From: Flavobacteriales bacterium
GTDB lineage: Bacteria > Bacteroidota > Bacteroidia > Flavobacteriales > Schleiferiaceae
NCBI GenBank assembly: GCA_002737315.1
Contig: NSIH01000005.1
Coordinates: forward strand, 1 to 59,004
Direction: 5' to 3'
DNA length: 59,004 bases
Shown here: piece after piece, positions 47,742 to 52,111 of the stretch
How positions within the stretch are numbered: the stretch's first letter is position 1
Layout of the letters: every line of letters begins with the position of its first letter
Position numbers and translations under genes: made by a program
The notes under the pieces: generated by a model
Seen by the model: only the letters and a program-made list of their open reading frames with translations
Told to the model about the DNA's origin: nothing
The model's database searches: none

Positions 47742-49763
47742 ATGAAAAAAGCCCTACTACTAACGACCGCCCTTCTTGCATCGGGGGTTGTATTTGCCCA
47801 AAAAGTTCAGCGAGCTGCTCCCAACGAGCGCTGTGTTGACGCTTCACCTGCACGATCCATGAGCCAAGCGGAGGTCGCAAGCTACTACCAAGGGGAGACC
47901 GTTATTTGGTCCGAAGACTTCGCAAGCGGAATTCCTACTACTTGGATGAACTACGGTACCGCTGTAGGCGTTGCCGATCTCGATGCGAAGTGGGAATACC
48001 GTGGAACCACAACTACGCCTTCTAATGCAACAGGTTCACGAGGTGCTTACGCTGGCCCAGCTTCAACGGGACAGTTGCCCATTCAAAGCACTACTGCTGC
48101 CAACGGATTTGTGGTTTTTGACTCCGACTTCTTAGACAACGCAGGCATCGCCGGTAACTTTTGTGGTACTGGAGCCTTGGCTTGTGCTCCGCACGTGGCC
48201 AACCTGGAGACTGGAGTAATCAACCTCCTGGGTCATCCTACGGTCGATCTTCTGTTTACTCAATACTACCGTCGCTTTGCCGGCGCAGGGGGTGTACAAA
48301 CGGTTCCTGCTACCTACCTTGATTTCTCTACCGACGGTGGAGTAACCTGGTCGGGTAACGTAACGCTTAACGCGGGCATTGCAGTAAACTCGGCGACTGC
48401 GCGCAACTCGGCAATTGCCGTGAGCATTGGCCAGTACGTGGGCAACCAAGCTAACGTAAAGATTCGCTTTCGCTTTGACGGAGACTACTACTTCTGGCAG
48501 TTGGACGATTTAAAAATTATTTCTACTCCCAAGAACCGCTTGACCTTCACTGCGGGTTCCGACGGCTCGCCAGCCCAAGATATTGTCTTTGGAGCCAATC
48601 AGGAGTCCGCTCGCATGGGTCGCATGACCTTGAAGCAGGTTCGTCCGATTGCCTTTGACGCCAACTGCTTCAACAGCGGCCAGAATGCCCAGACCAACGT
48701 CAAGCTGCAAATGAAGATTTTCAATGCAACTACCGGAGCTATGGTTCAGACCATCAACTCGCCAATCATAGCTTCTCTTGCTTCAGGAGATACGGCTACT
48801 TGGAACCAGTTAAACACCTACACGACGTCTTGGACTCCTTCTGCAGTGGGCCGGTACGACTTTACCTACAACTTGGTTTCTGACTCGGTGAGCATTGCCT
48901 CCGACACGCTTGGATCGGTGTTCGTGACCGACTCGGTAATGTCTCTGGACAACGGCAACTGGGATAATTCCATCGGTGCATCCTCCAACACTACGCAGTG
49001 GGGCGATGGATCACAGATGACCAACATGCAAGAGCTGGTCAATGACGAGATGCTCTTTGGAGCGCGCGTCTACTTGAGCAGCACCAGCCAGGCTGGCGCC
49101 ATTTTGGAGCTCGCGGTGTATGACTCCTCTGCATTCGGGGGGAATACCAGCGGATGGGATGCCAACAAGCTTGTAGCCTATGGGCAGCAGGTTCTGACGG
49201 CAAGCAATATAACGAATGGTTACGCGGAGTACAATTTTGCAGATACCGTTACCGGTCGTGGAGTGCTGCTCAATTTTAGCAATATTGGCTACTACTTCAA
49301 CCTGACGATGTACAACAACTCAGGGGCCAATACCCTGTTGATTCGCAACGACCAAACCTTTGGCGCACGTTCAGGAACTAAATACATGTACCTAGCGGCA
49401 CTAAGCAGTTGGTACTCTGGCTACAGTAACTCCAAGACCTTCAACAATCTTTGGATTCATAGCATTAACTGTCCCGCTACTAACGCGGCAAACTGCATGA
49501 CCACGAGCCTAGGAGAGAATCCTTTGAACCAGGTAGTGCTTGCACCAAACCCAGCGTCTGACTTTGTTAACGTGAACTTCGGTTTGCTTTTCGGGGAGCA
49601 TGCAGTAGAGGTTCTTGACCTAAGTGGCAAGGTGGTTCGGTCCACCAATGTTATGGCCGATGCGAATGTTCCGATTTTTGTTGGTGACCTTCAGCGCGGA
49701 CTTTACCTGGTGCGTGTTGCCAAGGGTGGCGATGTCAAGACTTTTAAGGTTTCTGTGCTCTAA
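47742..49763 (+). CDS. secreted protein with T9SS type A sorting domain
   Basis: A 673-aa secreted protein: signal peptide cut near residue 19 (VVFA|Q), an N-terminal jelly-roll-like domain (VIWSEDFASGIPTTWMNYG ... FWQLDDLKIIS, about residues 50-265) resembling the choice-of-anchor J/MAM-like domains, a middle beta-rich region of unknown role, and the C-terminal type A T9SS sorting domain (LAPNPASDFVNVNF ... VEVLDLSGKVVRS ... RGLYLVRVAKGGDVKTFKVSVL). The sorting domain directs export through T9SS and attachment or release at the surface. No catalytic motif is seen, so adhesion or matrix function is likelier than an enzyme. It is monocistronic with a clear terminator. Confidence 0.92.
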   Translation: MKKALLLTTALLASGVVFAQKVQRAAPNERCVDASPARSMSQAEVASYYQGETVIWSEDFASGIPTTWMNYGTAVGVADLDAKWEYRGTTTTPSNATGSRGAYAGPASTGQLPIQSTTAANGFVVFDSDFLDNAGIAGNFCGTGALACAPHVANLETGVINLLGHPTVDLLFTQYYRRFAGAGGVQTVPATYLDFSTDGGVTWSGNVTLNAGIAVNSATARNSAIAVSIGQYVGNQANVKIRFRFDGDYYFWQLDDLKIISTPKNRLTFTAGSDGSPAQDIVFGANQESARMGRMTLKQVRPIAFDANCFNSGQNAQTNVKLQMKIFNATTGAMVQTINSPIIASLASGDTATWNQLNTYTTSWTPSAVGRYDFTYNLVSDSVSIASDTLGSVFVTDSVMSLDNGNWDNSIGASSNTTQWGDGSQMTNMQELVNDEMLFGARVYLSSTSQAGAILELAVYDSSAFGGNTSGWDANKLVAYGQQVLTASNITNGYAEYNFADTVTGRGVLLNFSNIGYYFNLTMYNNSGANTLLIRNDQTFGARSGTKYMYLAALSSWYSGYSNSKTFNNLWIHSINCPATNAANCMTTSLGENPLNQVVLAPNPASDFVNVNFGLLFGEHAVEVLDLSGKVVRSTNVMADANVPIFVGDLQRGLYLVRVAKGGDVKTFKVSVL

Positions 49764-49841: not shown

Positions 49842-50474
49842 TTAGGCCTTGGAACCTTGAAGAAGGGTCTTGGTCAGGAAGTCTTTGTCGAGAGACCAGC
49901 CACGAGCCGGGCTGTATTCCCTCCCATAAAAAATGATTTGAAGGTGGAGTTTGTTCCACTTTGCTTGTGGAAAAAGTTTCTTGGCGTCCCGCTCGGTTTG
50001 TTCCACGCTTTTGCCTGAGGTAAGCTTCCATCGGGTCATCAGGCGGTGAATGTGGGTATCGACCGGGAAGGCCGGCACGCCAAAGGCCTGACTCATCACC
50101 ACCGAGGCAGTTTTATGCCCCACGCTCGGCATGGCTTCAAGCGCTTCAAACGACTGCGGAACCTGGCCTCCGTGCAGCCCAACGATCATCTCAGAAAGTC
50201 CTTTAAGTCCCTTTGATTTCATGGGAACTAGTCCACAGGGCCGAATGATCTCGGCAATTTCTTCGATGCTCAGGGCGGCCATGGCTTCAGGAGTATCTGC
50301 TTTGGCAAAAAGGCGAGGGGTTATGGTGTTGACACGGACGTCCGTGCACTGCGCAGACAGTACTACGGCACACAACAAGGTGAACGGGCTGTAGTGGTCA
50401 AGCGGAATCGGAACCTCCGGATACAGGTTCTCGAGGTGCTCGATGAGGTAGGCCGCTTTTTGCTTCTTGGTCAC
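49842..50474 (-). CDS. nth: endonuclease III-like DNA glycosylase lacking the iron-sulfur cluster
   Basis: A 210-aa HhH-GPD glycosylase of the Nth family, which removes oxidised pyrimidines and nicks abasic sites. It has LLCAVVLSAQCTDVRVN, the helix-hairpin-helix MPSVGHKTASVVM with the catalytic Lys, and FPVDTHIHRLMTRW with the catalytic Asp. The usual C-terminal four-Cys motif (C-x6-C-x2-C-x5-C) is absent: after LQIIFYGREY come no cysteines in the last ~25 residues, and neither other forward frame supplies them. The GTG start at 50474 follows a GACCTTTG box by 4 nt. Divergent from bcp. Confidence 0.92.
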   Translation of the reverse strand: MTKKQKAAYLIEHLENLYPEVPIPLDHYSPFTLLCAVVLSAQCTDVRVNTITPRLFAKADTPEAMAALSIEEIAEIIRPCGLVPMKSKGLKGLSEMIVGLHGGQVPQSFEALEAMPSVGHKTASVVMSQAFGVPAFPVDTHIHRLMTRWKLTSGKSVEQTERDAKKLFPQAKWNKLHLQIIFYGREYSPARGWSLDKDFLTKTLLQGSKA

Positions 50475-50528: not shown

Positions 50529-50987
50529 ATGACGCACCTTAAGCCTGGCGACCTCGCCCCCCAATTTGAAGCCCAAGACCAGCACGGAACCACCGTGTCA
50601 CTCGCTCAATTCGCAGGAAAAAAAGTAGTTCTCTACTTCTACCCTAAAGACGACACCCCGGGCTGTACGGCAGAGGCTTGCTCCTTCCGCGACGGCCAAT
50701 CGGAACTTCAGAATGCGGGCTACGTGGTGCTAGGAGTTTCGCCCGACAGCGTGAAGTCGCACGGCAAGTTCGCCGACAAGTTTTCGTTGAATTTCTCGCT
50801 GCTCGCCGACACCGAGAAGACCATCTGCCAGGCCTATGGAGTCTGGGGGCCTAAAAAGTTTATGGGTCGAGCGTACGATGGGGTGAACCGGGAGACCTTT
50901 GTGATCAGCGAGGACGGTCACGTGGAGCGGGTTATCGCCAAGGTAGATACCAAGGAAGCCAGCAAGCAGATTCTTGCCGGAGCCTAA
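50529..50987 (+). CDS. bcp: thioredoxin-dependent thiol peroxidase (BCP/PrxQ)
   Basis: A 152-aa peroxiredoxin reducing hydrogen peroxide and organic peroxides. The peroxidatic Cys is in FYPKDDTPGCTAEACSFRDG, with the second Cys five residues later as in PrxQ/BCP proteins; the N-terminal MTHLKPGDLAPQFEAQDQHG is standard. ATG at 50529 is selected, as the longer reading covers the divergent nth promoter. It is followed 125 bp later by recA with no strong terminator between them. Confidence 0.95.
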   Translation: MTHLKPGDLAPQFEAQDQHGTTVSLAQFAGKKVVLYFYPKDDTPGCTAEACSFRDGQSELQNAGYVVLGVSPDSVKSHGKFADKFSLNFSLLADTEKTICQAYGVWGPKKFMGRAYDGVNRETFVISEDGHVERVIAKVDTKEASKQILAGA

Positions 50988-51112: not shown

Positions 51113-52111
51113 ATGAGTCAAGAACGTGAAGCCAAATTGAAGGCACTTCGCCTCACCATGGAGAAATTAGATAAGACCTACGGCAAGGGTGCGGTTATGC
51201 TCATGGGCGATAAGGCCATTGAGGAGGTAGAGATTATACCCTCAGGCTCCCTTGGTCTTGACATTGCCCTTGGCATTGGAGGCTATCCGCGCGGTCGAGT
51301 TATCGAGATCTACGGCCCTGAATCCTCGGGTAAGACGACCCTCACGCTGCATGCGATTGCAGAAGTGCAGCGCAAAGGAGGCATTGCCGCCTTCATCGAT
51401 GCCGAGCACGCATTTGATCGGTTTTATGCCGAGAAGCTCGGAGTAAAGACCGAGGATTTGATTATTTCTCAGCCGGACAATGGAGAGCAGGCATTGGAAA
51501 TCACCGATAACTTAATTCGCTCGGGAGCGATTGATTTAATTATTGTGGATTCTGTGGCCGCCTTAACTCCGCGGGCGGAAATTGAGGGCGAGATGGGCGA
51601 GTCTAAGGTGGGTCTTCACGCGCGCCTCATGTCGCAGGCCCTTCGCAAGCTAACCGCAACGATTTCTAAGACCAACGTTACCTGCATGTTCATCAACCAG
51701 CTTCGCGAGAAAATTGGGGTGATGTTTGGCAGTCCCGAGACCACCACAGGCGGTAACGCTCTAAAGTTTTATGCCTCAGTGCGCCTAGACATTCGCCGCT
51801 CTACCCAAATTAAGGACGGCGACGTTGCCATTGGCAACCGCGTAAAGGTCAAGGTGGTTAAGAACAAGGTTGCGCCTCCCTTCCGTACGGCGGAATTTGA
51901 TATTCTCTACGGAGAGGGAATTAGTAAGGTGGGTGAGATTGTGGACTTGGGCGTTTCTACCAACGTAATTACCAAAAGCGGCAGTTGGTTTAGCTACGGC
52001 GACACCAAACTGGGGCAGGGACGCGACGGAGTTAAAGCCATTCTAAAGGATAACCCTGAACTTTGTGAAGAGATTGAAAACGCGATTGTTGCGAAGCTTC
52101 CTGCCCTTTAG
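51113..52111 (+). CDS. recA: recombinase RecA
   Basis: Strand-exchange ATPase of homologous recombination. The 332-aa product has the Walker [31 protein letters not shown] (Bacteroidota-type), [23 protein letters not shown] (Walker B and L1), [37 protein letters not shown] (L2 and C-terminal core). It ends shortly after the core and lacks the long acidic tail of E. coli RecA (352 aa). The downstream TPR gene begins within its last 47 bp. Confidence 0.98.

Follow-up and report, generated by a model that had tools for sequence, protein, structure and literature searches.

The role of the [4Fe-4S] cluster in endonuclease III (Nth) is disputed: it has been viewed as a structural prop, as a DNA contact, or as a means of redox sensing by DNA charge transport. 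Ligand mutants are hard to make because protein stability is lost (PMC9268735). A genome of the Flavobacteriales (Schleiferiaceae) raises the question of whether this enzyme can work without its cluster: the window, by which we mean the whole 59,004-nucleotide stretch analyzed (contig NSIH01000005.1 of assembly GCA_002737315.1), encodes an endonuclease III whose C-terminal tail lacks the cluster cysteines (Table 1). We consider it highly probable that the protein is a working endonuclease III from a mainly Bacteroidota clade, in a line without the C-terminal metal site. This reading draws on the sequence, the predicted fold, selection, distribution, and a two-Cys relative standing at the canonical nth place in other bacteria.

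Table 1. Features of the nth region in window coordinates
Feature	Position	Strand	Basis
nth-like gene, predicted cluster-free endonuclease III (210 aa, GTG start)	49842..50474	-	ORF, PF00730, TIGR01083, AlphaFold2 model
Helix-hairpin-helix region, residues 101-128, with catalytic Lys121 (codon 50112-50114)	50091..50174	-	Weak PF00633 match
Catalytic Asp139 (codon 50058-50060), His141, and Arg144 (codon 50043-50045), putative relay residues	50043..50060	-	Conservation
C-terminal tail, Fe-S cluster region of canonical Nth	49842..49925	-	Alignment to relatives' C-x4-H-x4-C-x2-C
Metal-site positions of the tail: Ser188, Trp193, Asp198, Thr201	49911-49913, 49896-49898, 49881-49883, 49872-49874	-	Alignment
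Divergent neighbor, presumed bcp-like thiol peroxidase	50529..50987	+	Named by its sequence
Presumed recA	51113..52111	+	ORF; named by its sequence

An Endonuclease III with No Cysteine in Its Tail

Profile and structural comparisons identify the window protein as an endonuclease III. It matches PF00730 (HhH-GPD; 1.3e-24, 87 bits) above the cut-off of 26.2 and the TIGR01083 "nth" model (1.6e-59, 200.8 bits) below the cut-off of 211.7; on the MutY equivalog TIGR01084 it reaches 37.8 bits, below the cut-off of 286.5. The PF00633 match at residues 101–128 is weak (11.8 bits, below the cut-off of 24). The AlphaFold2 model (mean pLDDT 95.4; 94–95 at residues 181–200, 78 over the last ten) has as its best-ranked solved fold the Geobacillus stearothermophilus enzyme 1p59 (Z 27.6, 210 residues, rmsd 1.9), and the predicted structure keeps the endonuclease III fold over its full length. 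In structural alignments at 36–38% identity, the protein shares whole-length fold, catalytic Lys and Asp, and length with the Geobacillus (1p59/1orn) and Escherichia coli (2abk, Z 26.4) enzymes, and differs from them in having no C-x6-C-x2-C-x5-C. Comparison confirms what an earlier note on this DNA had read from the letters: the catalytic Lys and Asp, here Lys121 and Asp139, are intact and the cluster cysteines are absent. The predicted fold is intact as well.

The tail, GREYSPARGWSLDKDFLTKTLLQGSKA, contains no Cys and no His. A profile search found no match to the Fe-S domain PF10576 in the window Nth; the same profile does match a canonical Bacteroidota Nth (L219) and the MutY of the window genome. 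Over the tail, up to the nth-frame stop, none of the three minus-strand frames contains a Cys; undoing a simple frameshift would therefore not bring the motif back, as the earlier note had argued. We infer from the absent ligands that this Nth holds no cluster.

The genome to which the window belongs, as contig C45, measures 1.36 Mb in 51 contigs and is 84% complete. A PF00730 search of this assembly returned two proteins, the window Nth and a MutY on contig C23, and no second Nth; nor was an Fpg/Nei-type glycosylase found in the 84% complete assembly. Among the proteins found in its genome, the window Nth is the sole predicted glycosylase for oxidized pyrimidines. The MutY on C23 carries the canonical C-x6-C-x2-C-x5-C with four Cys (HCLPKNPKCGDCPLIEFC), matches PF10576 at 22.8 bits (cut-off 20.5), and scores 236.8 bits on TIGR01084, below the cut-off of 286.5 yet its best family. 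Because MutY keeps its motif and SUF-type proteins are found in the genome, ligand loss is not common to all cluster glycosylases there; a general loss of Fe-S proteins was rejected on the same grounds.

A protein of this kind might keep the HhH-GPD fold and catalytic residues and yet have shifted its substrate, so that it is no longer endonuclease III in function. The score below the TIGR01083 cut-off leaves room for such a shift, as does a substrate that is not legible from sequence. We nevertheless regard it as unlikely: Lys121, Asp139, Thr140, and His141 are kept in 188 of 188 members of the clade defined below (Gln42 in 187), the genome yields no other Nth and no Fpg/Nei, and a clade member occupies the canonical nth place in Gammaproteobacteria. 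If catalysis runs as usual, as the conserved residues, the fold, and established endonuclease III chemistry lead us to expect, the window enzyme would act as a bifunctional DNA glycosylase/AP lyase on oxidized pyrimidines: Lys121, assisted by Asp139, would attack the damaged nucleotide, once flipped out, at C1′.

A Mainly Bacteroidota Clade with a Noncanonical Sister Form

The comparison set left out two copies of the window gene (L001, L188), two distant paralogues (L059, L060), and three entries that were MutY-type or gave no match (L061–L063). The 247 remaining proteins became 227 once those with identical first 195 residues were merged. A protein was assigned to the clade if its BLAST identity with the window protein was 50% or more (189 rows, the lowest at 54%; other Nth reach 45%); once one member with a broken tail (L124) was dropped, the clade numbered 188 members, alongside 38 other Nth. 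The sample is biased towards the window type, since its 80 named loci are the closest ones to the window protein.

Profile searches of the class (247 genomes) and the phylum (148 genomes, overlapping) divided the matches listed into scores of ~292–393 bits and scores below ~278 bits, and the high-scoring group was present in 74 of the 247 class genomes, the window's included. A tree built from 100 rows, to which the 226 had been thinned by identity, set the clade apart from the other Nth (SH-aLRT 100). Judged by sequence, the window Nth belongs to a distinct, mainly Bacteroidota clade.

Tail types within the clade were scored at positions 188, 193, 198, and 201. Among the 188 members, these read CHCC in 65, CCCC in 1, CFCT in 15, and CWDT in 4, and 103 have zero Cys; the window, with Ser-Trp-Asp-Thr, is of the last kind. 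The three-Cys motif is C-x4-H-x4-C-x2-C, not the canonical C-x6-C-x2-C-x5-C, in 65 of 66 members, the remaining one having Cys for His. Neither of the two CHCC members tested (L201, L237) matches PF10576. L201 passes TIGR01083 (215.4 bits), and its model (mean pLDDT 94.5) aligns with 1orn at Z 27.0 (213 residues, rmsd 1.9). An extra Cys lies a few residues downstream in eleven CHCC members (L125, L129–L131, L134, L137–L140, L143, and L237).

His, or the single Cys that replaces it, occurs in 66/66 three-Cys members versus 0/122 others. The Cys of L052 in the same register suggests that the His position of the CHCC form may be a metal ligand, though L052 is one sequence only, in which some residues are ambiguous, and shared ancestry alone could explain the covariation (an independent-pairs test gave 1 usable pair on well-supported branches). 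L052 (G016:C11:1629-2601) is itself a second Nth in a genome of the window's genus, with a C-x4-C-x4-C-x2-C tail; given its ambiguous residues, it may be bin contamination.

The history of these forms can be drawn in more than one way. The tree, from 186 columns and 100 of 226 rows, leaves 49 of 97 inner branches open. Free parsimony gives 15 state changes, and a tree holding the 45 non-CHCC clade rows together has the higher likelihood (p-AU 0.926). A single loss may account for these rows, in which case the one- and two-Cys forms would carry regained Cys instead of relics. The tree does not show a stepwise Cys loss, being poorly resolved and less likely than the one with non-CHCC rows together. 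Outside the clade, one Nth of the phylum Bacteroidota (L283, G389:C1:972870-973875) has an odd Cys pattern, GRACCKARFSTPPDHELCVNYGTKCECQKM, neither canonical nor CHCC.

Proposed Replacement of the Metal Site

Lys121, Asp139, His141, and Arg144 are invariant across the 188 clade members and the 38 other Nth alike. At the first Cys position, the 122 non-CHCC members have Ser (103) or Cys (19) and nothing else, and Ser stands there in 103/103 zero-Cys members. Position 193 is Trp in 75 of the 122 and Phe in 22, position 198 is Asp in 101, and position 201 is Thr in 100. Five further positions differ between the three-Cys members and the others: 146 (Ala 42/66 versus Met 109/122), 164 (Leu 40/66 versus Ala 117/122), 183 (Phe 49/66 versus Tyr 121/122), 195 (Pro 31/66 versus Leu 83/122), and 199 (Pro 63/66 versus Phe 44 and Ile 36 of 122). 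These differences read as repacking, a reading that ancestry confounds.

The prevalence of Asp at position 198 and stray tail Cys in a few members, such as L017, could mean that the tail still binds metal through other residues, Asp198 for example, and that the enzyme is not metal-free. We consider this very improbable, since 97 of the 122 have Trp or Phe where the His would stand, and the tail in the window has neither Cys nor His and offers Ser-Trp-Asp-Thr as a poor ligand set. The reading we prefer is that no metal would be bound: Ser-Trp-Asp-Thr, together with the changes at 146, 164, 183, 195, and 199, would turn the tail into a small packed protein core that replaces the metal, the Ala-Arg of the loop probably being retained in the window's line.

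Endonuclease III has a Cys-Arg-His-Asp relay, according to PMC12000561; Arg144 follows the catalytic Asp at a distance of five residues, and on this ground we equated it with the relay Arg of that source. A Ser replacing the first Cys could maintain the relay as Ser-Arg-His-Asp. Ser188 would then form the hydrogen bond with Arg144 that the first Cys otherwise provides, and the relay to the catalytic Asp would survive without iron.

Mutants of Deinococcus radiodurans DrEndoIII2 bear on this proposal from both sides. In PMC9268735, C199A gave no protein, and the one Cys-to-Ser mutant that could be produced was C199S, which was unstable and active. C199S resembles the clade in that the first cluster Cys is Ser and activity is kept, the same Ser being found in the 103 zero-Cys members. 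It differs in being a laboratory single mutant that, by the same source, still carries [3Fe-4S]/[4Fe-4S] and is unstable. That ligand changes destabilize DrEndoIII2 (PMC9268735) counts against the cluster-free reading.

Conservation of the Tail in Close Relatives

The window's genome and 59 relatives make up a set of 60, in which 51 carry Nth of the window type and 4 a canonical Nth (~40% identity); Nth was not found in the other 5. Of the 51 window-type proteins, 45 have no Cys at a ligand position, 1 has one Cys, and 5 have C-x4-H-x4-C-x2-C; L017, among the 45, has a Cys elsewhere in its tail. The named records nearest to the window Nth are MAGs of the Flavobacteriales, several of which bear the label Schleiferiaceae or Cryomorphaceae, and the closest, UBA972 (L064, 97% identical), has the same tail. 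A tail of the cluster-free type also occurs in the named isolates Flavobacterium swingsii (L082) and Flavobacterium psychrophilum (L090). Recurrence in 45 of 51 genomes and in a MAG at 97% identity means that the tail is neither chance nor assembly error.

The window nth is under purifying selection, and its tail is conserved in close relatives. Its dN/dS against L004–L011 is 0.038–0.065 (dS 0.36–2.79, the larger values saturated); a ninth comparison, with L016, gave no ratio. Among L005–L010, 15 pairs give 0.013–0.050, and over codons 184–202 these pairs show 0 to 2.5 nonsynonymous versus 0 to 11.5 synonymous changes. That a sequencing or assembly error or a decaying copy only makes the gene look cluster-free, as the 51 contigs, the 84% completeness, and the broken tail of one relative (L124) might hint, is scarcely credible against the like tails of UBA972, F. 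swingsii, and F. psychrophilum, the low dN/dS with its conserved tail, and the finding of no second Nth in the genome. The earlier note would have given up its reading had other assemblies restored the Cys motif or had the genome held a second full-length Nth; neither was found, the latter in the PF00730 search of the 84% complete assembly, and the clade-wide loss that it proposed to look for is borne out by the 45 of 51.

PF10576, a 17-position model, matched in 32 of the 60 genomes. Its matches are canonical Nth in G043, G046, and G056 (220–228 aa) and otherwise MutY-sized frames (327–385 aa). In 28 of the 60 genomes it gave no match at all; their MutY may be absent, overlooked by so short a model, or cluster-free too. 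In one genus of the order, an Nth-like paralogue with ~28% identity and a four-Cys tail stands beside the clade nth (L059 in G053, L060 in G038).

A Two-Cys Member at the rsx-nth Locus of Gammaproteobacteria

Clade Nth also occurs in named loci of Alteromonas, Glaciecola, Vibrio, Endozoicomonas, Paraferrimonas, and others, at 66–76% identity. All 15 nonredundant gammaproteobacterial loci have the CFCT tail and, 24–159 bases away on the same strand (486 in L111), a neighbor that we take from its sequence to be rsxE; in the three loci read gene by gene (L105, L111, L117), it lies upstream of the clade nth. The pairing of nth with rsxE recurs in an annotated plasmid record, and nine canonical nth read from the Alteromonas gracilis family likewise adjoin rsxE. 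The two-Cys form therefore stands at the canonical nth place in several Gammaproteobacteria, and the four-Cys enzyme would be dispensable in those cells.

In a sample of 147 genomes of the Alteromonas gracilis (G427) family, clade Nth is present in 21, with two Cys in 20 and none in 1 (L319); the displacing form may thus still carry a cluster. In 17 of the 21, rsxE lies within the fetched flanks of the clade nth, which is the sole Nth match in 15 of these 17; three of the other four (G477, G535, G572) retain a canonical nth as well. In a Litorilituus MAG (L111, 3549-4669), a 147-aa canonical nth that ends before the catalytic Asp lies between rsxE and the clade nth, and G479 (L311) holds a similar fragment of 151 aa. 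Both truncated genes look like replacement scars. TIGR01083 found one clade Nth in each of 11 named genomes, the further matches in three being MutY-sized frames.

Contig C2 of G563 (114644-119531) holds, within 5 kb, a clade nth by rsxE, a canonical nth, and the broken pieces of a second clade nth; our reading is a replacement or duplication caught midway. In the tree, the single two-Cys row stands beside a row of the window's order (family code f3) with SH-aLRT 93, a placement that would fit transfer from Bacteroidota. No plasmid or phage vector for clade nth transfer was found among 72,556 plasmid and 50,697 phage records: 186 and 15 records gave matches, all below 60% identity (listed rows 38.7–44.3% and 36.5–46.3%, respectively).

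Precedents and Implications

Clusterless MutY is reportedly the subject of a FEBS J. 2016 title. Such relatives, which the earlier note had mentioned, are indeed known: clusterless MutYs are described in PMC11078426, MutYX is also named in PMC12585504, and PDB 8uuc is, by its structure title, the clusterless MutYX. Like the window Nth, MutYX is a HhH-GPD glycosylase without a cluster; it differs in belonging to the MutY family and in aligning (8uuc, Z 18.9) over residues 5–194 only, with most of the tail unmatched. The earlier note, otherwise supported, had missed both the relatives' C-x4-H-x4-C-x2-C and a precedent in yeast. Saccharomyces cerevisiae Ntg1 is an Nth homologue without the iron-sulfur center that Ntg2 and NTHL1 have, as stated in PMC4666366, and in this it is like the window Nth when the two are set side by side by description. 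Ntg1, compared in the same way, is a eukaryotic paralogue that arose by genome duplication, and its cell still has a copy with the cluster, whereas the window clade is bacterial, mostly the single Nth found, and has a CHCC sister form. Trypanosoma NTH1 was rejected as a cluster-free precedent, its cluster Cys being conserved according to PMC4902261.

Literature searches of published, mostly open-access papers returned no cluster-free bacterial Nth, CHCC form, or displacement among the matches listed. As far as searched, a cluster-free endonuclease III lineage is known in kind (Ntg1, MutYX) and new as a bacterial clade with a noncanonical sister form; new to the same extent is a two-Cys member at the Fe-S enzyme's place in other bacteria.

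For the course of these changes we offer a tentative account, which we hold to be possible at a little under even chance. In a Bacteroidota clade, a four-Cys [4Fe-4S] site would have become a three-Cys/one-His site (perhaps zinc or a His-ligated cluster), the metal would have been lost in the window's line by Trp/Phe repacking with the first-position Ser kept for the relay, and the two-Cys form would then have displaced the Fe-S Nth at rsx-nth in Gammaproteobacteria. If this account is true, the endonuclease III cluster would be a replaceable structural part, not an obligatory redox sensor.

Homologues with four-Cys, CHCC, two-Cys, one-Cys, and zero-Cys tails and the same catalytic residues, often the only Nth found in their genome, provide natural controls for the role of the cluster. 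Clade proteins score near or above the cut-off of the nth model, so annotation of Fe-S content by homology is unsafe.

Surroundings of nth in Bacteroidota

A divergent bcp-like homologue lies by nth in 75 of 118 Bacteroidota clade loci, many of which have flanks of only ~1.5 kb, and recA is often next after it. The divergent bcp-like arrangement includes 6 of 33 CHCC loci, and 4 of 7 canonical Bacteroidota nth are also near recA. These shared surroundings may mean that the clade is an in-place replacement or an old divergence. In the window, a large protein that looks secreted is encoded at 47742-49763, convergent with nth; its C-terminal tail, of the sorting type, presumably resembles those of type IX secretion substrates.
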